A DNA stretch of 64,000 nucleotides from Nereocystis luetkeana (taxonomy: Eukaryota > Sar > Phaeophyceae > Laminariales > Laminariaceae). A model generated the notes under the pieces. The model was not told the origin of the DNA. It worked only from the letters and a program-made list of their open reading frames with translations, and searched no databases. The stretch is taken from positions 2,972,001-3,036,000 of the forward strand of contig JARUPZ010000021.1 of assembly GCA_031213475.1 (NCBI GenBank), read 5' to 3'. Positions 179 to 63,541 of this stretch are shown here, piece by piece (within the stretch, counting starts at the first letter, position 1; every line of letters starts with the position of its first letter). The position numbers and the translations under genes were made by a program.

Positions 179-3100
179 GTGAGCTTCCCTTACCCCTTAC
201 CTCCTTACCTCCTTATCCTTGCCCTCGCCCTCGCTCTCACGTGTACCTTTACGTTTACCCTCTCGATTGAGCAAATGCCTTCTAAGGGTGGTGCCTTGCT
301 TTCACTGAGATCCTCGTGCGACATGAGGAGCTCGATATGTCACAGCCGAAAGGCGAGAACTTCGGAGTGAGGTTTTTTGTTTCGCGCAAGAAAGCAGCCC
401 GACCAGTACTTGTACCAGTGTGCCCTCAAGAAACGCAGTCCCGAAAACATGTACCTCGTGTCCGTAAATGTAAAGATCGCTCTATGATTGATGTTAAGGT
501 CCAGTCGTTTCTTATGTTTACGGTCGCGATGGCGTCCGCGTGCCTACTAAGATCAATTTCGTGGGTTCAAGTCTCTCACCGAGTGCATACTCGTAAGGAC
601 TTTATCTTGCGTAAAAATTGATTGGTTTGAAAGCACGAAAGCGTGAGTTAGCTACACATTCGATGAAAATCGACGAGCGGTGGGAACGCTGAACCCTATG
701 CGCGATTTGAAAAAAATATGAAAGCACGTGCCGGGGGGGGAGACGGGACGACACCCGTGACCACGGCTTGTCCAGAAGAAGCCCGCTGACTGGAAAAACT
801 CCCACGAGTTGACCTGGAAAGTGAAAGTGGTGATTAACCCTTTTAGAACCGCAGTCCCGTTTTGGGGACAAACTATTCAAATTTCAAGTAGTTTGTCCCC
901 AAAACGGGACTGCGGTTCTAAAGGGGTTAATATAACAAAAAAAAGTGGTACGATCGCTCGATTGAGGAGCTCAACCGGTCAGAAATTATCGACGCAACTT
1001 ATTGCAACCCCGACCGTGTGATGAGCCTTTTACCCGTACCCTAAATATTTCCCCTCGCCCTTACCCTTGCCCTCACTATTGCAGTGTATCCTTCTCCTAC
1101 CCTCAAGCCTTGCTCATTTTGTTTTTTTTTCCAAATTTTCCAAATTTCCATTTTTTTTTCCCCCAAATTTGTTTTCCCCGTTTTTTTTTATTTTTTATTT
1201 TTATGTTTCTTCGCCAGCAGCCCTTGGCGGTAAATTTGGAAATTTGTCTGCCCCGGCAAGATTGACCGTGAGCTGCGATAGCGATATACGAAGTACCTTC
1301 GGTTATCACGATTCGTCATTCGTCAGGACTCACCTGTTGAAAAACATATCAAGCGAGGAGTTTTGAGCACTTTCTGTATGTCGTTCTCTGCCGCCCCCCC
1401 CCCTCCCCGTCACTGCACGCCATGTAGTTTAGTGGTCTTCTCGTGGGATCCCGCGGGAACGGCTGGGATTACGCAGGGTGTACCGCGGGATACCGTGGAG
1501 TCTCGTGGGACGTGCCACGGGTTCCCACGGGAATAAACCCGATATTGCACGCCTAGACCTTCTAGGCAGATAGATATATCTATCCCTGATCTGCATGATC
1601 TGTATGATCTGTATAATCTAGCTCATGTTGCCGGGTGGGAGCCGTATAACCTGCATGATCTATTGCAGCACATGTTTCCTGGGTTGAATCTGTACTACTA
1701 TGCAGATCCTGCACAACTTCTCACAGCGGCAGGTGGGGATCTACTGTAGATCATCTAGATGATCTATGAATAGATGGATAGATCATGATTCGTCCGAGAT
1801 GTGAAAAACTGTTAGGCACACTGCCCCTTTTTTGTCGCTCCCTCTTACACCCTCTCTCTGTCTGTCTGTTTTGATGCTCTCTCTCTCTCTTTCTTGCCTA
1901 CCTCGCCGTCGGTATGCGTCGGTCTGCCTTTCTGTCTTGTTGATCGGCCTATCCGTCGGTCTCTCCGATAGGTGAACCGCGAGATGTCCCTTGGACTACA
2001 AGCGTGTGGCGTCGACACCTGGCTAGGAGTAGTGCCCCAGCTGATTGCCAGGGTGCACGCGGCCTCCCCTCGTGTGACGAAGCTTCTCAGAGAGCTCCTC
2101 GTCCGGATAGGCAGAAAGCACCCGCAGGTAAGTTTGGGGGGGGGGGACAAAACTAAACAGATCGGACCGAGCACGATCAAGATAGATCATCTGGATCTTA
2201 GAAAGTACCTGGTACCAGGTATGTCGTTATGAGATCAGACAGATCGCGATCTAGGGTATATTCATCTAGATCCCGTACTTGAAAAGTGTGCCGGTATGAG
2301 ATCGGAAAGATCGCCATCTAGAGTATATTCATCCAGATCCTGTACTCGCACTTGAAAGGCATGCCGTGTGAGATGGGGCAGATCGCGATCTACTGTAGAC
2401 CATCTATTACGGGGGACCATAGTAAATAGGACCAAATATTGTGAGGAGAAATAGGGAAATATGTAGATTTTTTTGTGTATGGTAGGTTCTACTTACTATG
2501 GACCCCCGTAATAGTAGATCCCGTACTTGAGAAATATACCATTTGTAGGGTTGGACAAATCACCATCTAGATCATCTAAATAATGTTCGAAAGCATGCCG
2601 TTGTGTGATGGTACAGATCACGATCTAGATCACATGGATTATGTACTTTAAACTATGCCGTTGTAAGATCGTACATATCACAATCTAGATCACCTAGTAT
2701 ATCCTATTTTTGGCAAGCATGCCGTTGGCAGCATCTGCGTTTTGCTGTAGTCTGGCCGTGAAACACGAAAAACATACCCTGCTACCTGTGATCGGTTCCT
2801 TGTGCATTTTTTTGCCGATTTGAAAACGAAAAAGTGTTGTATTCCGGATCTGAAAGAGTCCTAGACCTCAACCATCGTAAGCCTGACCCCTATTAAATGC
2901 GGCGCAATCGATTTAAATAAAGGGATAATTCGTCGAACCACGAAAAGCTCGTCCCGCCACGCACTTCAGCGTGGTCGTTTTAGTGGAGGTAGAATTTTGT
3001 CGTGTTATGACGAAATTTGTAATGAGGGTACAGCTCGCCTACCCTGGCCCGTCGATAACTAGGTTCCGCCGAATGCACTTAAGAAGCCACGAGCATGTAC

Positions 3101-6100: not shown

Positions 6101-9100
6101 AAACAAACTGGTAGGTCTACGTAGTAGCATGGGATCGTATTTTTAGAACATGAGACCAAATCGGAGAGGAGACCACATCAAACTACAGTAGGTTTGCTTT
6201 CACGGGTGATTTAGAACCGCAGTCCCGTTTTGGGGGACAAACTACTCAAATTTCAAGTATTTGTTTTCCCCAAAACGGGGCTGCGGCTCTAAAGGGCCTA
6301 AAACGTTTCTGAGAAGCTACCCAATGAGGCACGACGTACATATCGGTGGTATCGCCTTCGTGTTTTTACAACACGATGCGTGTCAACACACTGGGCGGAA
6401 ATATAAGGACCATTTATATATCAATATGATTCCAAGCGGTCCTTATATTTACGCCCACAGTGGCAGGCACCAGTTTTTTTTGCGAGGGAGGTGACCAGTA
6501 TATATGGATACCAGGTAACAGGTACCAGTATATGTACCAGTATTTTTTAATACTGGTACATACACCGCCCTGGTCGGAAATGTAAGGATCTTTTATACAT
6601 TAATATCGATACTAAGCGGTCCTTACATTTACGCCCAGAGTGGTACATTTTGTTTGTGGTCTCGTCTTCGCCTTTGCTTTCTGTCCCTTTCGTGCTTGAT
6701 TTTTTTTTTTTTAGCTGTCCTCCTTCTTGTCGTCGTCGTCCAAGGAAGCCTTGTTGGACAGCGATGAGCCTGTTTCGTTTGTTTCCTGTTGCCTGGTGCA
6801 TCCTCTACCAGGATAGCAAGATACCAGACTGTCTATGCTACTCGTATCTGTCACAACCTGCTGTGGCTTCCTTTTGTTTCGTTTTTTTGTTGTGCTTCGG
6901 TTTGCTTGTTGTTTCCCCTCCGTTTTTATTGCTGCTCCGTGTAGATGTATATAGCTGTGTTGGTTTATTGCGCACGCTTTTCGTGTTGTCTGCCACTTGT
7001 CCTTCTGGGGGGCACGACACGTACGATGTATCGTGGGTTTGTTGTTGGGGATTGGGATTGAATTGCCCTGAAAGTATCGAAGTATTTTTGAAAATCTCGA
7101 GAGATTGAATTGGCGTTTTTGACGGCCGATCTTTCAGTGAAGATTGAGAATCGAAAGTTGGTTGATTCACTCTTCGTTCAATCTCAATGTTTTGTTTTTT
7201 TGTTTGGGAAGTGACCAGTATATATGAATGCCAGGTTACAGGTACCAGCCAGTATATATACCAGTAGTTCAATGCTGGTACATATACCACCCTGGTTGGG
7301 AATATAAGGATATTTTATGCACTAATATTTACACCAACCGTTCCTTATATTTACGGTCGGAGTGGTACGGGTACTGATCGGGTTATAACCTTTGCACCAC
7401 TGCAAACACGATGACGCTCTACTGTAATTACCTGGGGTACCGAAGTAAAGAGGGTATAGCTGAAATCGCACAGGGATGCGTGCGATCGTTTTTTTTTTTT
7501 TTTTTTAATCAGCACTCCTTCCTCGACGGCGGTCCGTGAGAAGGGTGCTGAAAAAAGTCGAACGATATACGTACATACCCTGGTAAATATTTGCGGAAGG
7601 GGGTCCCTCTCTCTCTTATCTCGATCTCTCGAGCATTTTTTTTTTGCCGGAAAACGCCTTTTCTCGGTTTTGGAGGCAACCTTATCAACCTTCCCGTTGT
7701 TAGAGCACTGAACAACGATCGTTCGTCGCCCCCCCCCCCCTGTACTGTGCGAGCGAATTGAACGCTCGTTTGGGGTATATATATACCAGGTATTAATAAA
7801 AAAATAGTAGTTTAGGGCACGACGATAAAAAGTGGCGTTTTTTTTTTTTTTTTTTTCCCTTCAAACGTCGGTTTTGGGGTGGGATATGTAGATAGCTCCT
7901 TTTAGAATGAGGAGCGAAGATAAATAAATCATGAGGACCCCCCCCCCAAGAAAATGTAAGTGCTTTCCCCTAGCCCAGCACACGTCGAGTGTTGTGGTGG
8001 TGGTGGTGGTGGTGGTGGAGGTGGTGGGGGTGGCGGTGATGAATGATGAGGATGGGGATGCGTGTGCCATGGTGGTGGCAGTAGTGGAGATCACGGCAAT
8101 GTGGATGATGGGGATGCGTGCCATGGTAGTGGTGGTGGTGGTGGTGGTGGTGTTAGTTAGTAAACATTAGGTTTTGTTTTTTTTTTGCGTATTTTTTTAT
8201 CCACCTACTTCGAAGTTTACCGTATACCAGTCGATCCCGAAATGTAAACGTCAACTTGGATTGTATAGTTATATACAATCGGTCGTTCTATTCCGGATAT
8301 AATGGTATAAAATGCGTGTCGTGTGTCGTGCAATGGTGATGATGATACCCACGCTGCCGGCGTGTCTGCAGTCCCCCACCCCCCACGCATGACATCGAGT
8401 ACCTCTCTCCTATCGAGTACACCCCCCCCCCCTCCCCACCACCCCACCCGCCGTCCATGCAACCCCATCATCGTCTGTGCGGCTTTTGCTTGGAAATTTC
8501 TCGTTTTTTTTCCGGAAAATATTTCAGGCGGCAGGGGCGGTAATGGCGGACATGCGGAAGCAGTATCCCGTGTTGGTCGAGGAGGCGTCTCTTTTTTCAA
8601 GGGCGATGATCAAGGTGGGGTACCACGCTCTGCTTCCTCTACTTGCTGTGCTTGCAGTGCTTGCCTTGGCTGCGCCTTTGCTTGCCTTGCTTTGCCTTGA
8701 TTTGCCTTGCTTGCCTTGCTTGCCTTGCTTGCCTTGCTTGCCTTGCTTGCCTTGCTTGCCTTGCTTGCCTTGCTTGCCTTGCTTGCCTTGCTTGCCTTGC
8801 TTGCCTTGCTTGCCTTGCTTGCCTTGCTTGCCTTGCTTGCCTTGCTTGCCTTGCTTGCCTTGCTTGCCTTGCTTGCCTTGCTTGCCTTGCTTGCCTTGCT
8901 TGCCTTGCTTGCCTTGCTTGCCTTGCTTGCCTTGCTTGCCTTGCTTGCCTTGCTTGCCTTGCTTGCCTTGCTTGCCTTGCTTGCCTTGCTTGCCTTGCTT
9001 GCCTTGCTTGCCTTGCTTGCCTTGCTTGCCTTGCTTGCCTTGCTTGCCTTGCTTCCGTTGTTTGTCTTGCTTGCCTTGCTTTGCCTTGCTTGTTTTGCTT

Positions 9101-12100
9101 GCCTTGCTTGTTTTGCTTGCATTGCTTTGCCTTGCTTTGCCTTGCTTTGCCTTGCTTGCCTTGCTTTGCCTTGCTTGCCTTGCTTGCCTTGCTTGCCTTG
9201 CTTTGCCTTGCTTGCCTTGCTTTGCCTTGCTTGCCTTGCTTTGCCTTGCTTGCCTTGCTTTGCCTTGCTTGCCTTGCTTGCCTTGCTTGCCTTGCTTCCG
9301 TTGTTCGTCTTGCTTGCCTGGCTTGCCTTGCTTGCCTTGCTTGCCTTGCTTGCCTTGCTTGCCTTGCTTGCCTTGCTTGCCTTGCTTGCCTTGCTTCCGT
9401 TGTTCGTCTTGCTTGCCTGGCTTGGCTTGCTTGGCTTGCTTGGCTTGCTTGCCTTGCTTTGCCTTGCTTGCCTTGCTTGCCTTGCTTTGCCTTGCTTGCC
9501 TTGCTTGCCTTGCTTGCCTTGCTTGCCTTGCTTTGCCTTGCTTGCCCTGCTTGCCTTGCTTGCTATGCCAGTGCATTCGTGGCTTAGTTTCTCAATTTGT
9601 ATCTCTCTGTTTTCGTTCGTTTTTTATTTTGTGCGGCCCTTCTGTGTTCTCTTATATTTTCTTCTTCTGTTCCACTCTCGTGTTGTGTTGTGTTGTGTGT
9701 GTGTTTTTTTTTTTTTCCTCCTTTTTCTCAAGGTGACGTTTTTTCTTTTTTTGTCGAGTTCCGAGTTTGTTTTCAATTGCCGCAATCAATCATCGCGGTT
9801 TATCTTCTGTTTTATTTCGGTTTGTTCGGTGAGCAGGTGGCCATGACGTGGTCGGAGGTCTGGCACGAGGGTCTGGAGGAGGCGTCACGCATGTACTTCG
9901 GAGACGACAACGTCGAGGGCATGCTCAATCGATTGCAGGTGAAGACAGTGCTGCTGTTGTTCGGTCATGTGTGCTGGTGCTGATGTTGGTGGTGTTGTTG
10001 GTGCTGTAGGTGTCTGTGTTGATGTTTTCGCCGTCGCTGTTGCGGTTGCTCTTGCTGCCTTTCTACATCTACGAGCTAGTCCTTGCCCATCTACGAGTCT
10101 GCCCTTGCCCATCTACGAGCCAGCCTTTGCCCATCAACGAGCCAACCCTTGCTCATCTACGTACGGCGGGGAACATGGAAGTACATGCCTGCGCCTTTTA
10201 TCGAGAAGGCTCTGCGGTAAAACCTATGTCCACACAGTTGCGCGTTTTGCATTCTGTTCTCTTGTTCTATGCGCTGCTAGTGGTAGCTATGGTATTCCTA
10301 TGCCTGTTGGTTAGCTTTTTTTTCCCCTACGATCTTTTTTTTTTTGCTGCTCTCTGTTTTTGTTCTATTTACTACTAATATTAACTTTATTTTTCCTACG
10401 CCGCCTATTGTTTAGCTTGTTCGTTCCCCTATGGCTATCTGTTTTCTTATATCATTTTCATCCCTATGTTTATTATATACCTCCTGGTAGCTTCTTAGTT
10501 TTCCCTATCATTTGTTTGTCTTCGGACGTGTTTTTTTCACCCCGGCTGCCCCCCCCCCCCCGCGCCCCTAAAACGCCGCCGCGGCCACAACCCCCGCCCC
10601 CGCCCTCCCAAAACAGATGCTACATGCCCTCCTACCCTGGACCGCCGCCGCCACCGCCGCCGCTGCAGCCTCCGCCGCGGCAGCAGGCGGTGGAGGGGGC
10701 GGAGGGGCGGGAGGGGCTACCTCGTGGGGCGCGCAGTACAATGCCGCGACCGGGCGGGGGGCGGAGTGGGGGGGGAAGGCTTACCCTGCTGCCCCCCACG
10801 GGGGGGGAGGGGCTGGTATTCACGCGTCCCCTCTTGGAGGCCTCGCCGCTGGTGACGGTCCGGCGGCGGACACGGTGCGAGGGGTGGCGTTTTTGCATCT
10901 GCACGGCAGGGACTTGGGGGAGGCGTGGGATTGGGTGCAGCGGTACTTGCGTTCGAGAAGGGAGGCCGATCTGTTGCAGGTACGCATTTATTAGACTTTG
11001 TGCGATACTCTTACGAGGGACCCTAGTAAATAGGACCTACGGTACACGCAAAATCCTATATATGAATCTATTTTTATTGTCACGGGGGACCATAGTTAAT
11101 GTTGTCACGGGGGACCATAGTTACCACTTTCCTGAAAGCTCAACATTAAAAATACGAGAGGCTGTCTGGTACCTGGTAATATTTATTATATTACGGGGGA
11201 CCATAGTTAATAGGACCTGTGGTGTACATAAAAACCTACATATTTAACCATTTTCACTAACAATATTTGGTCCTATTAGCTATGGTCCCCCGTAATAACA
11301 ACATTTGGTCCTATTTACTATGGTCCCCCGTAATAATGGGTTTTTTTTTCCGCTCATGGGTAACGGCGGGGGGTGTACTCATGTCATGCATGGCCGTAAT
11401 CGTATGGGGGGGGGGGGGGCGTACGCATGTGTTGCTTGCCTTAGTCATTCAGCCATCGACTACGCATCCCTTTCGAGACGGAGCATCGTTTCTACCTCTA
11501 AGACTGGTGGGGTGGGCAGGTGAGGGAGAGGAAGGAGGGCGGGGGGTGGGGTGGGTGTACTCGATATCATGCATGGCCGTAGTGGGGATGGAGAGGGGCG
11601 GCGGCGGGGGGGGGGGGAGATAGTCTTGTCTTTTTATTTTTTGTTTTTTATTCTTATGTTTTGTTTTCTCGCTGTGTGGTGTCCGTGCTTTAACCCCTTC
11701 TTCGGGTTTCTTCTTGTTGGCTTATCGCGAGCGGGCGGGGTAATAAAAGAAACGGGAGCCATCGCCATGTGCTATGATATCTCCGTCCGGACAACCTAAT
11801 CTTGTCTTTGCTGCTGCTCCTGCCCCCCCCCCCCCGCGCGCGCGCGCGCACGCACCTCCCCCCTTCCCCTCTTCCTCAGGCATGGGACATCTATTACCAC
11901 GTGTTCCGCAAGATTTCGCGGCAGTTGACCACTCTGAAGCACATCGAGTTGAGGCATGTGGCTCCCGCTCTGCGCCACGCGAGGGACCTGCAGCTTGCGG
12001 TGCCTGGCACGTACCGGTGAGGGGGGGTGGCGTTCTGGCGGAGATTTTGGGGCGTGTTGGAGGCGTTTTTGTCTTGTTTTTGCTGCGTACCGATGAGGGG

Positions 12101-13602
12101 GGTGGCGTTCTGGTGGAGATTTTAAGGCGTGTCTGGGGCGTTCTTGTCTTGTTTTTGCTGCGGTTTTAAGTCGATAGCGCTGTTGCAGGTGTGTTTTGAA
12201 GGGAGGGGAGGAGGGGGGGGGGCGGCGGGAGAGAGGGAGAAAGAGAGACAGAGGAAAGGAGAGCAGGAAGAAGAGTCTGTTTAGGTCGATTCTCTTGATT
12301 GATTCGGTTTTATTCAGTTGATTGATTCGATCCTTCCAGTTGGTTCGATTGATGCAGTTCGTTCGACTCGTTCCATCCGTTGAGCTCAGCCGATTAATTC
12401 GGTTTATTTTTTTATGCAGTTTACCGCTCCATGCGTGCATTTGCCTCAGAAATGTTAACTCGATCCGTTCGACTAATTCGATGCGGGAGGGGGGGTGGTG
12501 GCAGGCACTATTCATACTTCGACGAAGTCACATTTTTCCTGTACTGACATCCTTCAACTCAGCAGCTCCTCCAGGTTTTGGGTTGCTGATGTTTTCAAAC
12601 ATTTTTGTTGGTAAAGACCAGCGATTCGATGCTCAACACCTGAAACCAAAGAATATCCCCACAGTTCATGATCTAGCTCTTTCATGGCAGATGTATTCCT
12701 AATCTGTATGGTATGTATGATCTGTGCGATCTGTATGATTTTCGTGTGGTAGTTCATGTTGGCGGGTGGGAGCCGCGTCAGTTTCATGGTCTGGCACATA
12801 TTCTGTGGGCTGAATCTGTAGTGGACAGGTCCCGCAGTCTGGCACGTACTATGCAGATCCTCCACAACCTCTTAAATCGGTAGGTTAGGAGCTAGATGAT
12901 CTAGATATATAACTGCTGTAGATGATCTATCTATCATCTGCCCGACGGGTGACACGTTGTCTCGGCGCTTCTCAATACCTGGTACCGGGTATGTTTTATT
13001 TTCTTTCATGTGCTACCGCCCCTCATGCTTTCATGTTTTCATGTTTTGTGTGTGTGTTTGTTGCTTTTTTATGTTTATTTTTTTTCTTGCAGGGCCCATG
13101 CTGATGTCGTTCGTATTCAGTCCTTCGCGACTACCGTAGAAGTCATCACGTGGTCCAAGCAGCGCCCCAGGAGGATGACCATACACGGGGGTGAGACTGA
13201 CTGATTGATGGGAGCATAGACGTTGATAGTGATCGTGTTGTTGTCGTCGTGCGTTGTTGTTGCTGGTGTTGTTGCTTTTGAGTGTTACGTAGTAGCAGTA
13301 GTAGTGGTACTGTAGTAGTAGCAGTAGCAGTAGCAGTAGCAGTAGTAGTACTGTAGTAGTAGCAGTATTAGTAACAGTAGTAGTAGTAGTAGTAGCAGTA
13401 GCAGTAGCAGTAGCAGTAGCAGTAGTAGTACTGTAGTAGTAGCAGTATTAGTAACAGTAGTAGCAGTAGTAGTAGTAGCAGTAGCAGTAGCAGTAGTAGT
13501 ACTGTAGTAGTAGCAGTATTAGTAACAGTAGTAGCAGTAGTAGCAGCAGTAGTGGCAGTAGATATGGTAGCGATAGCAGCAGAGATGGTGACAGTAGCAG
13601 CG

Positions 13603-13644
<42 letters not shown>

Positions 13645-16600
13645 ACACACCGCCACCGCCCCGGCACACACAACACTCGGCACTCTACCAACCTGCGTTA
13701 CGCTACATCCACCCCCCCCCCACCCCCCCCCACCCCACTTCCCTGGCACTCTGTATCCCTGCGCCCTGCCCCCCGCCATCCCTACTTCACTCCCTCCGCC
13801 CTCATGGCTTGTGGCCGTTTCCTCTCTATTTTCCTGCGTTTGTCTTACTCTCTTGCTTGCATTTTTCTTGCCTTTTGTTTGTTTTCACGTTTTTTTCCCC
13901 CTTTGTCTTTTGCTTATTTTTGTTGTTGCTGTTGTTGCTGTTGCTGTGATCGTTCAAAAGCTGCTCGGTTCTTGTGTTTTATACGCGCTCTGCTGTGTTT
14001 TTTCTCTCATGTGATTCGTCTGTGTATGTTGTTGTTATATGTCAGGCGACGGAGTGCCCTACTTGTTTTTGCTCAAGGGTCGGGAGGACCTCAGGCAGGA
14101 CGAGAGGGTGATGCAGCTGTTCGGGCTTGTGAACGCCCTGCTGGCGAGCGAGAGGCGCACGGCAAGGGTCAACCTCAGCATCCAGCGTTACGCTATCCTG
14201 CCCCTGTCCAACAACTCCGGTCTCATCGGGTGGGTGCCCAGCTGCGATACGATGCACCAGCTCATCAAGCAGTACCGGGAGAGCAAGGTGGGTCCTTCCG
14301 GAAGGCTGTGTCGATGGCAGAAGCAGTAGAAAGGACTATTTTTTTTGGGCGTACGAACAGGAGAAGGAACGTATGACGGCGGTTAATGTTTTCGTCATGT
14401 GTTCATTCCGCGAACAAGCCTTGAAAAAAAAAGGGTGTTTGCCGACATCAGAAAATACTGTACGGTAGTGTTCGCCTATGTACTTCGAAGTATGGGCTCG
14501 TGTTTTAGGTGGTGGTGGTGGTGGTGGTTATTGTCCTCGCTGTTGTTGTTTTTTGCCGCTGGTGCTGTTACGGTTGTCGTGTTCGCTGTTTTTGCCGTTT
14601 TTGCTTCGTTCAGTGGTTGCCATGTACATACCTGGTAGAGTTTACCGCGTTTTTTTGTTCTTGGCTGCTGTTTGTGTGATTTCTCTCTCCCCCCCTCCCG
14701 CCCCTCTGCCGTTTCCCCGACCGCTTGAGAGCAGGAGATGCGCTTGAACATCGAGTACAAGATCATGACCAGCCTTGCGCCCGATTACGAGAAGCTGCCG
14801 CCGCTACACAAGCTCGAGGTGTTCGAGTGCGCCCTTTCGCAGACGGATGGTCAGGTACAACATCCCCTCCCCTCCCCAGATATCTATTTTAGTTTTTTCG
14901 ACTTTTATCAATCTTGCTATTATTTGATACGGCAAAAATTATGCCACACGAATCTTCCCGATAGTTTGTCCCCAAAAACTCATGATCGGTGTGCTACAGC
15001 GATTTCTTTTATGCGAGTCGTCTGCATTTTTCAGGAGCAGCGATTCATTTTTTGTCGCTCTGCGTATGCTTGCCTCCCGCTTCCCCTCTCCTCCCGACGG
15101 TAGCGAAGCGTAGCGGCGCGCGGCGGCCGGGGAGGCAGCAGCTGAAAACCTAGCTTAGTGCCGCCTATATACGACCCCCTCCCCCCCCTACTTCCGCCGT
15201 GTCCCCTACCCTATCCGGCTGTCTTTTCCCTTTCTCTGTCAACTCCGTAACCCACGCTATGCTCGCCCCCCCCCTTCCCCCCCCCCCCCCCCCCCCCATG
15301 CCTCTTCCCATTCGCTCGTCCGTCGCTCGCTCGTCCCTTCGCTCATCCTCCGTCCGACCTTGACCTCGTGGGGCTGGGGCGGGGTGGGCTCAGGACCTTG
15401 CGAGGATGCTTTGGCTCAAGAGTCAGAGTGCTGAGGCGTGGCTCGATCGCCGCACCAACTACTCCCAGTCGCTGTCGGTCATGTCTATGGCGGGATACAT
15501 ACTCGGACTGGGCGACAGGCACATGAGGTGCAGCGTTCGGTGTTGCCGTTGTCCTTTTGTCCTTGTCGTTGCAGGAATTTTTGATTTTTTTTTTCCGGCT
15601 GTCGGGTGGGGTGGGGGTGGGGGGTGGGAGTAGGGTGTTTGCGCCTTAGTGGTGCGCTCGCAGCACTTCGCTCCTTCTTCTGTATTTTGACGGATTGTCA
15701 TGGAATGGGCTGTCGTGTGACGGGATGGTCACGCGCTGGGCTTCGGTGTGGTGGTTCTTCGTGTGGTCGGGTATGGTGTGATGGTTCAACCGTGTGATGT
15801 TGGCCGCCGTCGTATGATTGTGGATGTCGTGCGGTGCGATACGCTGGGTGTACAAGCAGTGGGTTCGCGTTGACCCTCGCCCATTAGATCGCGTTTGGCG
15901 GGCGCAACGAGCGACATAAAACTGCTACCTGTCCCTCAAAAGACATGCGCTGGTAACCGGTACCTGGTAGCTGGTTACGGTAAAGCGGTAACCGCGGCGA
16001 TAACGGTCACTGTGGCGGTAACTGTGACCGTGACGGTAACTCTCACAGTAGCGGCAACGGTATCCGCGGCGGTAACGGTATCGGCGGCCGTAACGGTCAC
16101 TGTGGCGGTAACTGTGACCGTGATGGTAACTTTAACAGTAGCGGCAACGGTAACCGCAGCGGTAACGGTATCCGCGGTGGTACCGGTATCCGCGGCGGTA
16201 ACGATAACTGTGGCGGTAACTGTGACCGTGAGGGTAACTCTCACAGTAGCGGCAACTGCAGCCGTAACTAACCGAAACGCCGATGCCACAGCGAAGCCTT
16301 GAAAAAACTTCAACGCCACCGCTTCTTTTTTTCCACGTCGGGTAGACAGATGATCTATCGGATAGATCATGATCTATAGTAGATCGTCTGAATCCCAGTC
16401 CGCTTTATGTTATGCAGGGGCCTGTGTACGTGGTACAGTACACAGGCCCAAGGCAGGAAACATGCCCTATGGGTACAGCAGGTCGTGCGGGTGGTGGGTA
16501 CGGCTCCCACCTGCAATAGGTTTTGTACAGATGAAGGATACATGTTTCTGTCGGTGAAATATCTAGATCATGAAAAAACGGGGAATCGATGGCCTGTTCG

Positions 16601-31950: not shown

Positions 31951-31952
31951 TA

Positions 31953-33882: not shown

Positions 33883-34027
33883 TAAAAAGTTAATCGATAC
33901 GATACTACCGTTCGTTATACCAGGTATATGCAAAAGAAACTACCGATATGCGAAAGAAACTACTGTATGTAGTCGATACTATATCGGTATTCAATGCATG
34001 GTACATCAAATAAATCTTTCGTTCAAC

Positions 34028-35149: not shown

Positions 35150-36313
35150 CGTATCGATCGAAAATTGATGGCCGTATCGACCGGTGCTTTGCACGCCGTA
35201 GAAGGGTGAACCCCGTGCCATGTAACGGTGAAAACCAACCCGAGAGGTTAGAAGCCGGTAAACCCTGACGTCGTTTGTAGTCACAGCTCTCCATACAGGG
35301 GTGTTTTGGCCAATCGATGATGAGCTGTGCCGACGATGCAAGGTGCTTCTTGTGACGGATTGCCGTAGTTGTACCGGCCAATGGCGTCAACCCCCCCCCC
35401 CCCCCCCCCCGCTATACCGTTTTATGGCGAAACATAACATAGCTATCTGGTATTTATTGCAGAGCAGAGAGCAGAGGCAACAAGTACATTTATGTATGCG
35501 TTGCCTTGCTGTTCCCCAGTGTACTGATCTGCAGTGGTATTTAAGAAGGTTGGACGCTCGCACGAGATCACCATGCCACCACGAAAGCATATGGAACGCT
35601 CATATAGCCCAAACGGTACTTATAATCCCGTCCAGAACGATACCACGTACTTGCAAAAGCACGTACGAAGTATAATACCAGGTACTACTGCGTAAAACAA
35701 TGCGAGTACAGCTGCAGGTTTTTAGAGCACAACTACTTTTTTCAGGATAATACTTCATGAAAATTTATCCCGAAGGCGCAAGAACAGTTGCGGTGATTTT
35801 GGGGGCAAACAAGCAGGAAAAGCTTAAGAGAAGTAACGATCGTTAGTCCTCTTGGCCCTTTTGACTTTCCATATCATTAGCCTACTACGAGCATATGCCC
35901 CAAGAGAAATAATCCGGGATTATTAATAAAAAATCCGATATAAATCAAGAAATGAACGCAAAAAACAAAAATGCACTTAAATGCTACATAAACAAGCTCA
36001 GTTACGACGAGCACTATTCTTAGATCACCCGTAAAAAATACGTGCAAAACGCAAGAAGAGCCTACTACGATGACCTTTGCAGATGCTGTAGATGCTCGCT
36101 TCTTTCATCATTGCTGACACACCTGCTGGTTTACATCCCTGCATAGGCATGCCTGCTTGCACGATGCGTGCTTGCATGCGTGCCTTCTTTACAGCTTGCA
36201 ATCACGAAACATGACCATTTCTATGTCGCCAGTACTACCGCTTGCCGATCCGCCACGTTCCAGCTACTGCTATTATTGCGGCGGCGGCCGCCGCCGCCGC
36301 CGCCGCCGCCGCA

Positions 36314-47867: not shown

Positions 47868-50800
47868 GGCGTTAATAATAACAGCAGCAATACCACATAC
47901 CAACAACAGTGTGTCGTCACCTGCAACTACAACAACAGCAAAAAAAACAACCCAATCCCCACCCCCACCATCAAAAGCATCATCACCACCACCACCACCA
48001 CCACCACCACCAAAATTACCGTCAAAATATATGGAGGCGTCGCCTTCGTAGTGGATGGGCCAGCCGCGCCACTCCCCCCGCCCGCCTCTTCCATCTCATC
48101 GAACCACCCCCACGGCTCGCCCTCGCTCATTTTTCTGAATCACGATTTTTGATGTTCCGTTATATTTTCCCCGTTAAGATGAGAGAGCAAACGACGTGCC
48201 GAACCCGGACGAGTTTGCGGCGAAGGCGTTTAGTGGGGGAGGGGAGGGACATTTCTTTCCGTACAGAGGCGTAGCGGGAAAAAAAAGAGACGTGGGAAAT
48301 GAGTCACTTGGCGAGCGCGGGGTTATAACCCGTTCATACACTTAAGACGAAGTACTTGATTTTTTAGTGCTTTTTCTTTTTTCACAGTTACACATGGGTT
48401 ATAACCCTTTAAGCTGGGTTAACCCTTTAAGCACCGCAGTCCCATATGTGGGGACAAAGCACTCAAATTATCAAGTAGTTTGTCCCCAAAACGGGACTGG
48501 GTTGTCCTACACGAGTTGAGGGGGAGTCAACCCTACCCCAAAAACACCAATTCGTCGTCGAAGCGAACGCACACTCACTAGTCAGTGCTGTAGGCTGTGA
48601 GTCTTCATTGATCGAGCACCACCTTCCGACAAAACGAACACCCCGCCCCCCCCCCTAAACCTTCGCCCCTTCCCTACCTCCTCTTACGGGGGACCATACT
48701 AAATAGGAACTACGGTACACACAAAAACCTATACATTTCCTCATTTTTACTCACAACGTTTGGTTCTATTTACTATGGTCCCCCGTAATAGCCCCCCGCT
48801 CCCCTAGCTCCTAACCCCGCTCGCCCAACACCTCACGTTACGCTTCGCGCTTGGTGCAAGCAACGTCTGCCTGGCACGGTGAAAGCTCGACGTGCTCCGC
48901 GCCCCGATACTGAAGGGATGCGGGAGGGTCTACGGCCATTAGACTACGGCCACGCATGACATGAGTACACGCACACCCCTCACCCCCCTCCCCACCGCCG
49001 CCGCGCCGTTGCCGCAAAAATAGCCGTGGACTACTTACTCGCGGAGGGAGCAGAGACAACAACCGATAACTACTTTCGTCCCCGAAAATGTGGATGCAGT
49101 TTCCACACGGGCGGAAGTTGCACGCGTCGGACAGATCATCTACAGATAGATTATTTAGACCATCTACATATATATACAGATAGCTCATCTACATATAGTC
49201 TATCTACATATATACATATATCTACAGATAGATCATCTATAGATAGAGATCATCTACAGATAAATCGTCTACAGATAATCTACAGCTACATCATCAACAG
49301 ATAGATCATCTACAGATAGATCATGTACGTCCTAGCGTGCCGCTATGAGATGCTGTGCAAAATCTGTAGAGCAGAACCCATAGAATCCAGGAAACATTGT
49401 GCTACTGCCACAGATCACGCAGAATATGTACGAACTACTGGTTGTACCAGGTATATACACGAACTACCGCTTGTATATTTCGAGTTAAAACATAAACATG
49501 TAACAAATTCTTCAGGATTTGGAGTCGGTGTCACTATAGCTATTAATAGCTCTTCGGAAACAGCGCAACTGATGGACACCTTTTTGAAACAGCGCACAGC
49601 TACTGGTGACTAACAGCCTGAGGGAGTTCCCCTGATGGACACCTTTTCGAAACGGCGCACAGCTGCTGGTGACTAAAAGCCTGAGGGGCTTCCCTCTTGA
49701 GTGACGAACAGCGTGCGAGACTTGTGGATCCTTGTATGCTTCGACCCGCCTTCACCGCTTTCACCCGTTATTCGCGAACAGCTTGCGAGGCCTCTGGGCG
49801 CTTCTATTCTTCGACCCACCTCTACCGCTTTGACCCGTGATCAGCCGCCTGCGAATGGTTGGTTTGAAGGGCATTTTGACGCAAGTTGTCTCAGCGCGTC
49901 AAGACCCCAACCATCACACACACCACAGCGACCTCCGCCCTCTGTCCTTCCATCAAGAACATCACGATCGCCGCGAAGAAGTCGAGTTCGACCAGTTCGT
50001 CTCGCCGCGCATCAACATCCCGCAAAAAATCTGCCGCTGCAATCACGGCTGCCGCTGCACCAACGGCTGCATCAGTACTACGCGCATCGACAGAAGCTGC
50101 CGCTGCACTTGCGGGTGCATTCGCCGACCCAAAAAAAGGATGACGCCACCCCCTGGGCACGTGGGGTCTTCACAGGAGGCAAACGCCACCCGTTTGCCGG
50201 CCGGCGCACCGTTGTTCAAAAGGTGGGGATTGGAGCACCGGCCGCAGGTCTCCTGGAGCTCGGTCTTCGTCGAAGATCTTCGCGGAAGGGCGAGGACCAC
50301 GCGCCTGCTGGCGAATGAGAGGTAACGACCTTGGGCGGCGTCGGAAACGAATGAGCGATAGCACGCCCAATGCCGCTGGCGGAACCCGCTTCCCACCCGG
50401 CAGCAGCGGGACCAGCGGGATCAGCTTGGGCGCCAACGGCAGCGCCTTCAGCAGCAGTACCGGCAGGACCAGATAGGGGCGCCGAAAAGCAGCACCTTCA
50501 GCAGCCGCTTGCGAATGCAGCCGCAAGTGCAGCGGCAGCTTCTTTCGATGCGCGTAGTACTGACGCAACCGTAGTTGCAGCGGCAGCCGTAGGTGCAGCG
50601 GCAGCCGTGATTGCAGCGGCAGATTTTTTGCGGGATGTTGATGAGCGGCGAAACGAACTGGTCGAACTCGACTTCTTCGCGGCGATCGTGATGTTCTTGA
50701 TGGAAGGACAGAGGACGGAGGTCGCTGTGGTGTGTGTGATGGGTGGGGTCTTGACGCGCTGAGACAACTTGCGTCAAAATGCCCTTCAAACCAACCATTC

Positions 50801-53800
50801 GCAGGCGGCTGATCACGGGTCAAAGCGGTAGAGGTGGGTCGAAGAATAGAAGCGTCCAGAGGCCTCGCAAGCTGTTCGCGAATAACGGGTGAAAGCGGTG
50901 AAGGCGGGTCGAAGCATACAAGGATCCACAAGTCTCGCACGCTGTTCGTCACTCAAGAGGGAAGCCCCTCAGGCTTTTAGTCACCAGCAGCTGTGCGCCG
51001 TTTCCGAAGAGCTAGCAAGTGACACAGACCCCAATCCTGAGAAATTAGTCATATATCTATGTATGACAGGGCATACACGAGAGGAATGGATCGCTCATGC
51101 GGCGTGATCTCGTCAGACTGCATTGGATCTGAAACAGAACGACATTCCACATCCTTCAACGTTCGAGATCTGGGTTGCCGTTTGCTAATTATTGCCAACG
51201 GAGAGTACTACTGCTGCTGTGAGGCGTGCCCGCACAGAAACAAAGCGCGCGTGCGCGTGCAGTGACCATGTGAAGGCGGGCTCCTATTAATATTATAACC
51301 CTTTTAGGACCACGGTCCCTTTTCGGGGACAAATTATTCATAATTTGAGTGTTTGGTCCCCAAAACGGGACTGCAGTCCTAATCAAAAGCCATGATGGCG
51401 GCAGTGGCGGGGCACTGCTGTACATACGGTTCGTTCGAAACGCCCATGAATAAGCAAACACATCGTTATATCGTATAGACACCCAGCATGTACTACTCAG
51501 CATTCGGCATTCTATACAGCTTGTTGCAGCACCATTGCATTGTTCGGTACATACTATTTACGGGGGACCATAGTTAATAGGACCAAATATTGTTAGTAAA
51601 AATGCTTAAATATATACCAGGTAGGTTGTTATGTATACCATAGGTCCTTTCAACTATGGTCCCCCGTAATAATACTATCCTTACGTCGTTTGCGATGTAC
51701 TCTCTGCCTGTCTCGTAGTCTGGGACCAGAGCTTGTTCATGTATAGATACCTGGTGCACACGAACTACTGCTTGTGTAGATACATCATACGAACAACTCT
51801 TATATAGATACCTGGTATATACGAACTACTGCTTGTGTAGATACATACGAACGACTGCTTGTACCTGGTATATACATACATATATATATCAGTATATACG
51901 TGCATCTGACTTCCTCGCGGTAACGTGAGCTAGATCATACAGAACAGGGAGCTATCTATTCATATATCTATCTATCTGCCCAGAATGATCTAGATCATCA
52001 AGTGGGAATCGACGACCTGTGCGATCTGCGGGAAAAAGCTCGCTCACCCGTCCGAGCCCCCGTTGGACATTCCCGAGGAAGATCCGCTGGATGCCGAGGA
52101 GCCGTTGAGAGAGTCGTCGCTGCTCGTCACCTTACCTAGGGACAGCTCCGAGTCCCTCGCGTTGATTGCCTCCTCCTCTTGAAACTTGCCGCTCGAAAAT
52201 ATTCTCGATCTGTTTTGTTTTTTTTCCCCGGGAGATATATAGAATAATAAAAAAAAAACAATCATAAAAATGGCGGGGAGGAGGGGGGGGGGGGGGGGGG
52301 AGCGTGGGTAAGCGTGGGTGGGACCTACAGTATATCCACGACTACAGTATATCCACGAGTACGTCCGGTAAAATAATGGGGGGAAAAAACGCTAAGAAAC
52401 AAAAAAGTGTGGAAAAATATAACCCAATGTACGTACGTATGAATCAGGGTTAAAAAATACCAGGTGTATGTAACAAGCCTCGCCCACGGCACCTGCAGCG
52501 GTCCTGGAGGGGTCCGGAGCGCCGCCGCAGGCCTTCCCCAGACCAGGAGGATGCACCAAAGGGAACAAAAAAATGCCAAGAAACTACGGGCCAGGAACGC
52601 GGCAAATGTTTCCCAACTACGGGCCACGATAGAGTAGTGCTGTCCTCCCCAACTCCCTCCCCAACTCCCACTCCTTATCCATATGAGTACTGGGGAGAAG
52701 AAAACATTCCCGGAAAGTTCCGCCCCCCAAAAAGATCTTGTTGTCTATATATGAGGCCTCCCTCCGGCTAAGAAAAACTGCCGTACGTACGTACCATATT
52801 TTACATTTTACCGCAAACGAGTACGATGGCGAGAGCAAAAAAACAAAAAAAAAACGACGAGCGGAATGTGTTTTGCTTCGCGTGGATCGGACGGAGGAGT
52901 TCCTTGAGCAGGGCGAGGCGTGCACACTGCCATAAGCTGGAGAGACTTTTGGGTGACGGGGGTCTATTTAGCGGGGTCAACTTCCCTCACACGTCACACG
53001 CCTCGCCGGCTCTATAAACCGGGCGATCATTTCCACCGCGGGAGTTTCTTTTTGCTATTTTCCCCCCTCTTGTGTGCAGAACAACATCAGTATATATGTA
53101 CCTTGTACAGTCGTTGGGAACCCTTTTAGAACCGCAGTCCCGATTTGGGGACAAACTACTTGAACTTTGACTGGATTGTCCCCTAAATGAGACTGCAGTT
53201 CTAAAAGGGTTAATAGCCCGCTGGGGGTCGAGAGGGAACCAGACTGCGTGCTTGAAAGCCCTCGGATGTCGATGTGAGATTTGAGCGTGAGATCAGGAAT
53301 CTCGGCTTTTACACGTAGGTTCTCCGGCTCCCCGGTCCCTAAAAAATAAAAAAAGATTGCCTCGCCTTTCCAACGGTCTTTTCTTTGACAGGTCAGGACG
53401 TCAGGCGTCGATCATTGACTACATCCATACCACCATGTCCCTGAATATAACGAACGTTTTGATTGGATATTAGTATAAAAGCCCTTACATTTGGGGACAG
53501 AAGAGTAGATGATTAGACCTATGCCAATGGAAACGCGAAGTCCAAAAGTCATCTGTCAAATATATTGCTTTCAAATAACAGCCCAAACTTTCCTCGTACC
53601 GCCGCTGTGGGAAAAAAGAGAAAACATGTTCGATTGTTTCTTTTTTTTTTCCAACGGCTGCAGGCGGCGCAATTTACTTTTTCTGGTTGCAAATTGTCAA
53701 CACGCTGATAAAAACTAGCTCGTGCGACGATCGACGCTCGATCTCAACATACACTCAGCCCACGGCCAACCGCTCGGTGTCCGGCAAGGCCAACAAATAG

Positions 53801-56800
53801 ATATGACGGCCTCGAAGATAACAGGTGGATCCATGGTCTAGGAGGCAAGAGCTTGCCGGCGGCGTCCTACGGTATCCTCCCAAACCTGAAAAAACAACAA
53901 CTATTGTTTGCCTTTCGAGACGGATGGAGAAGTTTTGTCTTCTATTTTGTGCACACCAGCGGCCAATTGTTTTTTTATCATAGGCCTGGTCAGCTCCCGC
54001 CACAAAACACCGGCCATGGTGTGAACACGGTAACCCAAGGGCGGGTCGGAGCCCCAAACGAGGGCACTCTGTTCAGAATTCATGACGCAGTCGTTGGTCT
54101 TGTCGATCGATGTCTGTCAGGGGCTCGGAATCTCGACGCTTCGAACCAAAGATCCGCCCGAGTTTTACTCAAGCCGATGTTGGCCCAACATCGGCCCCCC
54201 AACATCGGCCCCAGATTTGCTTTTTTCGGGCTTCTTTTCCAAAACTTTGGGACCTTTTTTTTCTAAACGCGCCCATAGGAAGCGTGTTCTAATTTTTTTC
54301 GAAGGGGATCTTTGATATTCAAACTTTTTATTGATACTTCCCTTTCCCATTGGCATACCTGGTAGGTCTTACACGTCCTATGTAGGATCCTCTCGCCATG
54401 TATAACTAAAAATTAGTGTTGGATATAAAAATCGAACGGGTTTCGCCCTCAATCTCCTGGCATCTCCGTGTTTTTCTCTTGAACCTTTTAGGACCGCAGT
54501 GCCGTTTTGGGGGCAAACCAGTCAAACTCTACGTAATATGTCGCCGACACGAGACTGCGGTCCTAATAAAAGGGTGAAAAGCACATATACACTGAGCGAA
54601 ATCTTCCGTGTACCAGGTACCAAATATCGAGATCGAATGAAGCACAGAGGCTCGGGAGGTGTAGCTTGAGTATAATGCGGACGAGCGGCGTTGGATCGTG
54701 CCAGCGGGCCGCCGGCGGCCCGCTGCTATGGAACGCTCTCGCCCGCTTGGTGTCGTGGATGATGCGTCGTCCCGAAAGGATTCGCGCTCGTACTCGTGCT
54801 CGTACCGCCAGGCTTGTATGTAGAGTGCGACAGCATGACAGCTCGTGTATCATTCCAATTCCACCATGCTGCGGTAGCAGCAGCAGCAGCAATCGAAAAA
54901 TGGAAGCTGGTGCTGGTGCTGGTGCTTGTGCTGGTGCTGGTGCCGATGCTGTTTATTTTGTTGCTCAAGCTGATGCTGCCCGTAGCTGCGGCTAGCGCTA
55001 GCTAGCCGACACCGTTGCTGGGATGCCGTTGCTATTCGCACGCTACTTTTTGCTTTTCGATTTTTTTTTTGTTTGCCGCGTTGCCGCACATCCCCACTTC
55101 CCTCCGCAATTTCGGAGGCGTCGCCTGCAGCATTTGGTTTACCTCGTCCGCAGCAAACACACCAGACTCATTCATGATGGGAAGGGAAATCACTTTTTTA
55201 ACGAAAGGAAAACAAATTCCTGGAGTTTTCCCTTCTCTAAACACTCTACTAACCCTTTCAAGACTGCCTGATTGGAACACCTTACACCTGGTCAAAAAGA
55301 AGAAAACAAAAAAATCGAACAGAGGAGCTTCTCTCGCAGCCTCGTACGCCGCCCGCCCCTATCGCGACCACCTCGCCACCGATTCGGTCCGGGTAAAGCT
55401 TTTATCACTCTCTGCCACAATCCTCCCCGTCGCCCGCCTCGCGTGAAGCCCGGTGCTCACCGTGGCCGTCGTTCGTCAGCTCGATAACGTTGGTGTTCAA
55501 ACTGCACAGCTCCCTCTTACAACTTCAGCGTGGTCGCAAAAATAAGCACCGCTTGAACATTATCTTGAGATCCCGAACGACCCTTATAACTCGTACATAC
55601 TCTATCAAAAATCACAAATGGAGGCCAGACAAAGCTCGTTCATGCATCCCTCGTGTCTCGAGGCACACGCGACGCCTAGGCACGAAAGCGGTGACCGCGC
55701 TCCTTGCAACCCCCCCTTCTACCCGCCAGCACCCGCTGACACCCGCGACGGCGCCGGGCTCTCCCGCGGTGCCGTACTCGGAGTACACGCACGCACACGA
55801 AACGAAAGAAGAAAAAAGGAAGGAAGGACCGAGAGTGCCAAGAGAAATGGAGTAAACAAAGAACTGCTGGAAGGGTCCGGCACGTAGCGAAAGGAGGCGA
55901 TTTCGAAGTGGGAGCTCTGAGAGGCCAGGGATGTACCAACCGAGCACGCTCAGGAATTATATCTAAGTAAGTGGCTCTATTTTCGACTTTGAAAATAACA
56001 AAAACGGGACGGAGATGTCTCTGAAAACCATAATCCGAGGTGGCATTTTCTACATTTGACAACGAACAACTTGTTTTGTTTGTACCGGGTACAACACGAA
56101 AAAAGCAAGAAAACGATTCCTCGCGCAGCGCGTCGTACCGACACCAGACACCCCTGGCGTAGAATGCCATAAAAAAAAGACAACCCGACTGCGGCAAGAG
56201 ATTAACCCCTCGTACGTATTTCGGGCAGATCATCGATTCCCACCTCTCCCACCTTCGCATCATGGTCAGCTATAAGATCTACAGCAGTGCCAGTATTATA
56301 CATACCCTGGTATGAAATACGAGTCGTAATAGTACAATTAACAGTATGTGCATACGTAGATTCAGGGCAGCTATATTCCTGATCTATCATACTCGTATTA
56401 TACAGCAGCTATTATAAATATTAATAGTAGGTTGCTGGCGCATGTATGTACGTTTCTATGTTGTGCTCATCGTACCCTGCAGGACGATAGCATGACATTG
56501 GTTGTCTCGTCGGCTTGCGAGGACTGCATTTATTTACGATCTACCATGAATAACCCCCTTGGAACCGCAGTCCCGTGTTGGGGACAAACTACTTGAAATT
56601 CGAGAGCTTTGTCCCCAAAGCGGGACTGCGGTTCTAAAAGGCTGCATATCTGTGACATACGAGGTAGGTTAATAACCGCGTCACCACAGAGTAGTGATAT
56701 CGATCTACGTACAGCATCAATACTGGTATCTCTCTACGATGAAGAATCAGCATGGACACCGGGTGCGCTGGATGTCGGCAAGTACAAGATCGGTTTAAAC

Positions 56801-57882
56801 ATACGCATACTGCTGTCTCACATATACCAAAGGGTATATCTCCAAGTTTGCGTGTTGATACCTGGTACTATATACGGGGGACCATAGTAAATAGGACCAA
56901 CTATTGTTGGTAAAATTAGCGAAATAAGTTTTTGTCTGTACCGTAGGTCCTACTTTAATATGGTCCCCCGTAAATATTTCATACCGGGTATCTGGTATAA
57001 AATATCAGTATTAATAGGTGGTTCGCGTGCCTATCAAGATCAATTTCGTGGGTTCAAGTCTCACCGCGTCCATGCTCGTAGCTTTTTCTTGCAAGAAAGA
57101 AATTGATTAGCGGAAAGCGCGAGAGCGTGAGTTAGCTACATTCGATTAAAATCGACGAGCAGTGGGAATGCTGAATGAACCCTATGCGCGACAAAAAATA
57201 AAGGCACGTACGGGGGGGGGAGAAGCGACGACACCTGTGACCACGGCTTGTCCAGAAGATCGTTGAGGGTGAAAACCTCCCACCAGTAAAAGGCTGGAAA
57301 GTAAAAGCGATATTGAAAAAATATATATACGGAGTATATGATAAATACCAAACAGGTACCAGGTTCATGCGATCATTATTATTAATAATAATACCGGTAC
57401 GTATTAGGCCAAGTATTATGGGAAATTTTTGAGACGTTATTTCTGGCTTTTTCAGCGATCTCCGAAGCCCAAAAATCAGAACCATCTATTATGGGACAGG
57501 AAATCATCGATATTTTTGATCTCAGTTCCTGGAGGGGGCAAAAATCAGCAAAACCTCTCAGAACTGAGCTCAGTTCTGAGAGGTTTGGCTGATTTCTGAG
57601 AACTGAGATTTTTCGTATTTTGGGTGCTACATCTCACTACTACTGCCAGCCCACCTATCTACCTGCGCACCTGCCACCCGTCACCCACCACGCGAAAACA
57701 TCAAGCCGACGGCGGGCGGTAACTACGGCGCTTGTGTAAAGAGAGATGGCTTCTCCTTCACATGGAAGCAATATTAGCGGTGGCAGCAGCAGCTGCAACA
57801 GCGGCACCAGCAGTAGCAGAAGCAGCAGCAGCACCGCCAGCAGCAGCAGCAGCAACAGCAGCACCAGCAGCAGCAGCAGCAG

Positions 57883-60554: not shown

Positions 60555-61920
60555 CTGACGAGCTCTTGTTTTTGGCGAAAAGGTAAGATTGATGGAAACA
60601 AGGGCGCGTGTCGCACGGAGTGAAGCTTCCGTGTTACCCTCTGACCACCCGAGGAACTTATGACCTAGAGGGATTGTTCGCCTTACTACGTTGTATTCAG
60701 ACGAAGCAGGGATCGCCTGGAGTATCACTACTGCTGCTGTGAAGCCCGTGAACCTTTGCTGTAGACTTTGCTGGCGTGTGTGACAAAATTACTCTCTCCT
60801 CCCTTCCTCTCACAAACCACTTGCGGTTTGCATTTCCCATTCGGGATTCGGGATCTCGGATTGGACTCTGTCCTTCAAGTGCGGTACAAATACAGGCCAA
60901 TCAAACACTTGAACATTATTGGAACGACCAGCTGGCGCAAGTTCAAGGTTCAAGAGTCGGAGATGGGGAGTGGGAGGAGTCTTCCAGCAGTTATTTGCCA
61001 AGAGAGAGAGAGAGAGTTGTACTTGAAGTCAAGTGTGTTTGTTCGCAGCAAGCATCAGAACACGCATGCCCACAACGCCTCCTCCCCCCCCCCGCAGCGT
61101 TTATTTATAGACGTACTCTGCTGCTTGGTGTGGCGTGAATACTGCTTTCAAACTCGAAACAAAATAGAAATAATATACCACGTCGTACGAGGTAGTACGT
61201 ACGTATGTACTCGTACCAGTCAGTAGCAAGTGCAAGTAAGTGCCTGTGGAGCTACAAGCTACAAGTCAGTTACTGACTACCTGGTATAATAGAGATCACT
61301 GGTCAAACTATATTATGGGGGTCTTATTTCTTTACGCGACCTCGACCTCTATGAACTCTAAGACTTTTGTTTAGGATTTGTGGCAGGCTCACAACAAATA
61401 AATGTCTTAATTTTTTTCCGACATCGGTCTATCTATAACTCTTTCGTTTAGGATTTAGAGTTGGTCCAACACTTTATTAGTCTAAGAGCTGTGTTTCTTA
61501 ACCCAATTTTCTTGCTGTTCGTGCCGATCTGAGCCTATTTTTGTTCCTTATCTGCGACTCTATACGTACGCTGATCTCACCTTTTTTCTTCGTCGGGGTG
61601 TACCATGTGCAGTGAGTGGTGTTGGAAATTGCAAAGTTGAGTACTCTGTATATGTATATCAACTACTTAATCGTCGGGCGAACTCACAGCTGACGTATAC
61701 GTACCCAGGTATAAGATGATTTACAAAATCGAGCCAAGAAAAGTGCGATACGATGATATTATGATAATCGTCGTTATGAGTGATCCATGTTGAAGATCAT
61801 GCTGCACATTGTCGGAGGGCAAAATAAATAATAATGATGATCGTCGTCTTCTTGATTGAGTTTTTGATCGCGTGTGGGGTATTATACCTATATTGGGCTA
61901 TATATAGTGTGTGAAGGTCT
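60555..61920. other. upstream of PX exon a, no recognised feature
   Basis: Possible promoter or 5' exons of the PX gene on the minus strand; nothing I can assign. TACCTGGTA at 61,278 and TACCCAGGTA at 61,702. Confidence 0.35.
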
Positions 61921-62610: not shown

Positions 62611-63541
62611 TGTGACCGCAAACAAACGCAAAAGAAAAGCTCATCGCGATATACGGGCAGAAAGTGGTCCACATAAATAAAGAGGCGTCCGTCACAACTC
62701 ACAACCAACAAAACAAATGTTGACAAAAAATTGAAAACCAGGGTCTGAAGAGAATGTGTACAAGCATACACGAGATGCGAGTATTTGGTGAACATTGGAT
62801 TGAAGATGAGAGTTCCATGTCGCCAGCGAGAAGACGAAACAGGAAACAAAAATGTTGTGGTACTCGTAACGTTGCCCCTTTATGTAGTAATCTACATAGG
62901 GTTTCGGAGGAGTTTTTGCATTTCAAATAATATATTATCGTAATCACGTGGAGGTTTTCGCGAGCACGATTGTTTGATAGTATACGAAGTAATATAGCGA
63001 GTTATTGCGATTATATCGTGATGGCAAAACGCGATGTACAACACCGGCGATGTTCTTCAGTCCTCATCATCTGTCAGTGTATTCTACTTCGTACCTGGAA
63101 TTTTGTAAGTGGCACCTAAAAAGGCAGCAATTCGCTGCTGCGCTGATCGCACCACTTTTACTTTCGGGTCGGAATTGCGGTATAACCCAACACGCGCCGG
63201 AACGTGTATGTCCGGAGGTGTTTTTATACTCCGTACCAGGTATATGTTTAGGCACATTTGTATGCAATTCACTGCGGTGTTTGGTTCTCAGGCGTATGGT
63301 CACACGCATACATCACAAAAAACACCTCCGGCGACCCGTATGGGGGACCGGCCTCCAGTAGCCCCTACGGGAGGCAACACGCCTGCCGCTGCCCGATCGT
63401 TTTCGTACTTCAAGTTGCCCCAGAGAACGAGCTACTAAACAGAGAAAACGCAGGTTGTTTTTTGTTGTTGTTGATCTCACGTTCGCCCATTGCCACCATG
63501 CCGTAGGCTATTCTGTAGTCACGGAAAAGCACCAAGGTATT

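Follow-up and report, generated by a model that had tools for sequence, protein, structure and literature searches.

TACCWGGTA words as probable excision footprints of a TA-targeting cut-and-paste transposon

The footprint of Sleeping Beauty reads TAC(A/T)GTA, and its A or T in the middle arises from repair of a central mismatch. Passages in several studies of the Tc1/mariner and Stowaway elements describe excision footprints that consist of a few bases held between duplicated TAs (PMC1925063, PMC7913693, PMC7827188). As portrayed there, Sleeping Beauty inserts at TA and duplicates it, and the bases of its footprint are copied from ends that are cut with a three-base stagger (PMC7827188); the footprints of ZB and Passer are given as 0-4 bp and of mixed lengths (PMC7913693, PMC9976928). 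The relevant passages on Stowaway in grasses describe historical scars in an intron, in which short remnants (1-4 bp) of the inverted repeat stand between the duplicated TAs; some of these scars, such as TACTCC...AGTA, retain about six bases altogether (PMC1925063).

From algae, passages of a study of transposons list 17 Mariner-Tc1 families with 11,912 copies in Ectocarpus, mostly non-autonomous elements or MITEs (PMC12477816); the words footprint and excision are absent from the main text of that paper. A further element, Mariner-1_OLpv of an algal giant virus, is described as having a TA target and an EcoRII-like endonuclease, the match to EcoRII being weak (PMC3627910).

Here we describe a 9-bp word, TACCWGGTA, that is scattered through a 64-kb stretch of DNA (the whole of which we call the window). 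As far as the passages above go, it resembles the footprints of Sleeping Beauty and Tc1/mariner elements in the TA duplication and in having what would be transposon-end bases left between the two TAs, but differs in that theirs come from a three-base stagger or, for ZB and Passer, are of mixed 0-4 bp length, whereas here the 5-bp core is near-uniform. The Stowaway range includes about six bases, so that a five-base core does not lie outside it; those scars, in contrast, are a handful of variable ones at one locus, as against 27 exact copies in 64 kb. With the Mariner-Tc1 families of Ectocarpus the likeness is one of brown-algal host. Mariner-1_OLpv shares the TA target, and the recognition sequence of EcoRII, CCWGG, equals the core of the scar; that element, however, belongs to a virus of other algae and is likened here by its description. 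What is unusual against known footprints is the density and near-uniformity of the scars, rather than their length.

Among the matches listed in literature searches on footprints and on brown-algal transposons, none describes a scar of this kind, and searches for TACCTGGTA and TACCAGGTA led to 11 and 8 papers, by title and start of abstract unrelated experimental ones in which these words are presumably primers. Excision footprints are a familiar phenomenon; the novelty would lie in the density, the near-uniform form and the target preference. If the density holds genome-wide, scars could reveal cut-and-paste activity even in places from which every transposon has gone, and they could date that activity, show its choice of targets and foretell how the ends of the absent element read. 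Annotation of repeats as whole elements would miss scars of 7 bp entirely. A five-base scar of near-uniform form would depart from the short, mixed footprints of known TA-targeting transposons and would suggest that cutting or repair takes an unusual course in brown algae.

Abundance and form of the word

To judge from its sequence, the window looks like nuclear DNA of a brown alga. Two exons, at about 14045-14287 and 14735-14854, encode part of a TOR-kinase domain; the 120 listed of 685 matches are headed by a protein from the brown alga Hapterophycus canaliculatus, with 88% identity over 99%. Those of the others that span the full query stay at or below about 64% identity, and some fragments match at 83-93% over 60-67% of the query. 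An earlier note on this DNA had counted 27 exact copies of TACCWGGTA, 15 of TACCTGGTA and 12 of TACCAGGTA, and all 27 coordinates are exact. Its statement that they lie in none of the assigned exons holds for the two TOR exons compared, the copy at 14629..14637 (TACCTGGTA) falling in the intron between them (about 14288-14734). Where it had expected about 0.5 copies in 64 kb, 100 dinucleotide shuffles of the window give a mean of 0.42 and a maximum of 3, and an order-3 Markov formula gives 0.62. Composition-matched controls, here taken within the window, place TACCWGGTA first among 7560 canonical 9-mers of equal base composition (whose mean is 0.37), and in an order-3 over-representation table only homopolymer and tandem-array words stand above it. 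The 27 copies amount to one per 2.4 kb of the window.

The over-representation is confined to a narrow set of forms. CCWGG occurs 27 times between TAs, versus 0-2 times between each of 15 other repeated dinucleotides. Counts of TACC-Nk-GGTA for k=0 to 7 are 4, 31, 7, 2, 2, 1, 0 and 0, followed by 7 and 4 at k=8 and 9, part of which are tandem scars; a 5-bp core is thereby found in 31 of the 47 cases with k=0-5, and 27 of those have A or T at the centre (A in 12, T in 15). Exact copies centred on G or C number 4, against 0.42 expected. The seven six-base cores have CT (3), CG (2), TG (1) or CA (1) as their middle pair; they include the TACCC(A/T)GGTA variants, of which at least four had been claimed and all four are present (7576, 21081, 56303 and 61702), and the reverse type, TACCTGGGTA, has one copy. 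The motif is thus sharp at fixed positions and near-fixed in length. Single-mismatch copies with an A/T centre number 31, where 12 Markov simulations average 14.25; set against the intact copies, this excess of about 17 suggests a mean divergence of about 8% per site, as for neutral scars of mixed age.

No strand is assigned to any of the sites. Three places hold double units with a common TA (2206/2213, 12976/12983 and 21081/21089). At 2206..2221 two units read TA-CCTGG-TA-CCAGG-TA; at 12976..12991 TACCTGGTA has one TA in common with a G-centred TACCGGGTA (12983); and at 21081..21097 a double unit TA-CCCTGG-TA-CCTGG-TA stands in a MITE copy, near its end. Simple repeats also harbor the word, with TACCTGGTA within an AGT microsatellite at 20593..20601 and at the edge of a TA microsatellite at 34779..34787. 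Sites that offer no empty copy for comparison are those of TACCTGGTA at 11170..11178, 15961..15969, 29356..29364, 44218..44226, 54356..54364 and 61278..61286, and those of TACCAGGTA at 33918..33926, 35676..35684, 43122..43130, 54611..54619 and 63234..63242.

One way to account for the count is that the motif sits within longer repeats whose copying has inflated it. Motif-spanning alignments elsewhere in the window do exist for seven of the 27 sites (6509, 20593, 21089, 45610, 49445, 51615 and 51862), that of 20593 running through the AGT microsatellite. The TACCAGGTA at 6509..6517 lies in a duplicated segment that aligns within the window, and the copy of this segment at 7195-7368 has TGCCAGGTT in its place, a decayed version with an identical centre base. 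A 31-bp stretch around TACCAGGTA at 49445..49453 is paralogous to that around TACCTGGTA at 51862..51870, with the other centre base, and the latter site shares one local repeat with TACCTGGTA at 51809..51817. The remaining 20 sites, in a comparison that covers repeats with copies inside the window, have no alignment spanning the motif (E up to 1e-3), and the 24 sites that are left when three duplicates (51615, 51809 and 51862) are dropped still face an expectation of 0.4-0.6; we consider inflation by copying to be highly improbable. The question whether conservation ends with the 9 bp accordingly has a divided answer: it extends past them at the seven sites in duplicated stretches, and no alignment within the window spans the motif at the other 20.

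Filled and empty copies of a MITE site

A family of short palindromic elements, here MITE1, has about a dozen copies of about 115 bp in the 64 kb, with TA on their outer sides and ends reading TTACGGGGGACCATAG (2405-2516, 11006-11058, 11189-11335, 17188-17305, 17573-17686, 20996-21115, 31951-32062, 33770-33890, 45559-45675, 48681-48790, 51558-51674 and 56865-56973). TA is adjacent at 16 of the 24 ends that a search with up to three mismatches yields, and one end adjoins the TACCTGGTA at 56859..56867. The motif stands at one and the same internal TA in two of the copies, 45559-45675 (TACCAGGTA at 45610..45618) and 51558-51674 (the site at 51615..51623); once the orientation of the MITEs is equalised, these two differ at the centre, A in one case and T in the second. 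When CCAGGTA is removed from the site at 45610, the joined flanks align gap-free to eight other copies of MITE1, all empty at this position; of the remaining MITE1 matches one has 1 gap base and one has 5, and the second carrier shows a gap of 7 bases. A tandem array and AT runs matched less well and were set aside. The copy at 31951..32062 (strand +), with a single TA at the empty site, offers the best comparison between filled and empty states. Likewise, removal of the double unit at 21081..21097 leaves flanks that align gap-free to ten copies, and to an eleventh with 1 gap base.

At two ancestral sites of MITE1, then, one TA received the motif and became two. The testable sites have gained CCWGG together with a duplicate of the TA; at one of them this happened twice, in one instance with CCCTGG. 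This bears out the earlier suggestion that the flanking TAs resemble a target-site duplication, since motif-free MITE copies have one TA and carriers TA-CCWGG-TA. The accompanying view of the word as a 9-bp element finds no support: excision footprints usually take just this form, a few bases with a copy of the TA on each side, and the element itself would therefore be gone. For sites that have no empty relative in the window, which are most of the 27, reading the word as a footprint would proceed by analogy with these.

The same comparisons bear on whether the word is a functional palindromic protein-binding site, or one kept by repair or methylation as has been proposed for the HIP1 word of cyanobacteria, in either case arising by point mutation and held by selection. 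A sharp, palindromic, dispersed and strongly over-represented motif is what such maintenance might produce, CCWGG is a known site of methylation and restriction, and the flanks show weak symmetrical preferences. In MITE1, however, the motif came by insertion and not by substitution, and the 7-bp length difference between copies is not expected of a maintained palindrome of the HIP1 kind; two units have a common TA in three places, and the motif is found in microsatellites, in MITEs and in the TOR intron. We judge a maintained site to be quite unlikely.

A predicted transposon and its targets

The TACCWGGTA words are most probably excision footprints of a TA-targeting cut-and-paste transposon with ends beginning CC(A/T)GG or similar. 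Each of them would record one excision of a DNA transposon that uses TA as its insertion site and doubles this TA on entry. A staggered cut by the transposase would leave a few terminal transposon bases on each side; the protruding ends, self-complementary except for the middle base, would anneal and be joined, after which correction of the A:A (or T:T) mismatch would put A or T in the middle. Protruding ends of CCAG or CCAGG (or the same with T) would in this way give TACC(A/T)GGTA, with A and T near equal. Among three paralogous pairs the centre base differs in two (45610/51615 and 49445/51862) and is the same in 6509/7195. Since staggered ends leave terminal bases behind, the parent is predicted to have a terminal inverted repeat that starts with CCAG(G) or CCTG(G), just inside the TA. 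Six-base cores might come from pairing one base out of register, while a simple extra C would explain most of them equally. An alternative route could be a stagger of three bases, CCW, after which a single base is lost on either side; it predicts some TACCATGGTA or TACCTAGGTA unless base loss is the rule, and both have zero copies in the window. With one left behind at each jump, scars would accumulate, and cut-and-paste movement need not raise the number of transposons.

By mechanism the closest superfamily is IS630/Tc1/mariner, to which the TA target-site duplication points and which has this duplication in common with the sites described here. We class the motif as the footprint of some TA-targeting transposon and assign it to no named family.

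A bolder version has the transposon leave by cutting its own CCWGG ends much as the restriction enzyme EcoRII would. The cut TA^CCWGG...CCWGG^TA would yield five-base protruding ends that religate cleanly, in place of the usual two- or three-base stagger of a transposase. If true, this would account for the fixed five-base length and for the A/T middle, would amount to a restriction-assisted transposon in a multicellular host, and would mean that the genes for an EcoRII-like endonuclease and a cytosine methylase reported from within the viral mariner (PMC3627910) have a role to play. We regard it as very unlikely. A pattern search for the end sequences of the viral mariner had 0 of 26 pattern matches confirmed, and a search with the end pattern of MITE1 in viral and prokaryote contigs had 0 matches.

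The parent of the scars, on the favored reading of the words as transposon footprints, is predicted only. We found no element with TACCWGG...CCWGGTA ends in the window, in ungapped comparisons of the first 15-20 bases per end within 8-10 kb. The candidate pairs (TACCWGG...CCWGGTA at up to 10 kb and TACC...GGTA at up to 8 kb) were C-runs, the two MITE1 copies and the arms of a large inverted repeat, besides which there were a few weak ones (9-10 of 15 or 14 of 20 bases). Scans with Pfam of ten exon-like open frames, a small part of the frames in the window, found no transposase domain, and Rfam (at gathering thresholds) and tRNA scans of the window had no matches.

That no parent was found in the window, and that the scars are unusually uniform, would suit a direct insertion of 7 bp without any transposon, for example through end-joining that adds a palindrome at a broken TA or through abortive integration of transposon ends. 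This would need an unknown CCWGG template along with an unknown cause of the TA duplication, both of which would follow at once from excision of a transposon; we consider a transposon-free origin quite unlikely.

Neither of the MITE families in the window qualifies as the parent. The ends of MITE1 begin with TTACGGGGG after the TA, not with CC, and those of MITE2, described below, begin with CCCTTTTAG after TTAA. Further, of 24 MITE1 ends 4 have a TA at an outward offset of 6/7 (1 among the 16 that adjoin a TA), versus 31 of 54 arms of the TACCWGGTA sites.

This last figure comes from an examination of the flanks of the word. A or T is favored outward at positions 3, 6 and 7, in 39, 39 and 42 of 48 arms respectively (p-values of 1e-3, 1e-3 and 2e-5, uncorrected, among 24 positions). 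A further TA starting 6-7 bases outward, an offset picked post hoc once the data had been inspected, is present in the above 31 of 54 arms; sets of TAs drawn at random from the window (5000 draws) average 7.6, the highest reaching 19. With duplicates, tandem units and microsatellite sites removed the count is 15 of 34 arms versus 4.8 (maximum 14), and with all sites near simple repeats removed as well it is 10 of 24 versus 3.0, a value reached by 1 of the 5000 draws. The flanks would thus show a palindromic target preference, and, as it is not seen at the targets of MITE1, this would belong to whatever made the sites. Part of the outward TA preference could be older, decayed scars nearby.

Other repeated features of the window

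An 8-bp word, TATTAATA, has 16 copies versus 1.5 expected under an order-3 Markov model (7791, 24641, 30600, 32091, 34766, 35921, 36771, 37485, 43269, 49541, 51285, 56419, 57009, 57380, 58477 and 59704). Among 17 other all-A/T 8-mers listed, 15 occur 0-9 times, and the pure TA repeats 36 and 40 times. Three of the 16 copies overlap a CCNGG unit, among them those at 7791 and 43269, which overlap the TACCAGGTA sites at 7784..7792 and 43275..43283. When TTAATA is removed from the copy at 49541..49548, its flank matches a paralog at 50994-51049 (83% over 59), with three gap bases, two of which end three bases from the junction. On this one comparison, with gaps nearby, TATTAATA is perhaps a second TA-flanked scar, that of MITE1, whose ends are TT...AA, with a short stagger. 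If so, it would support the general reading of these words as scars, because scars of two families would be present.

The second palindromic family, MITE2, has eight copies, at approximately 831-925, 6199-6296, 48416-48511, 51292-51386, 53114-53208, 54476-54570, 56547-56641 and 63539-63633. Several of them have TTAA followed by CCCTTTTAGAACCGCAGTCCCG, ends which we take to resemble those of piggyBac-type MITEs.

The large inverted repeat spans 49649-51004, with arms of 422 bp that are 99% complementary and 512 bp between them. At 8649-9563 a 9-bp unit, TGCTTGCCT, is repeated in tandem about 100 times, and this array keeps several frames open over 300-450 codons.
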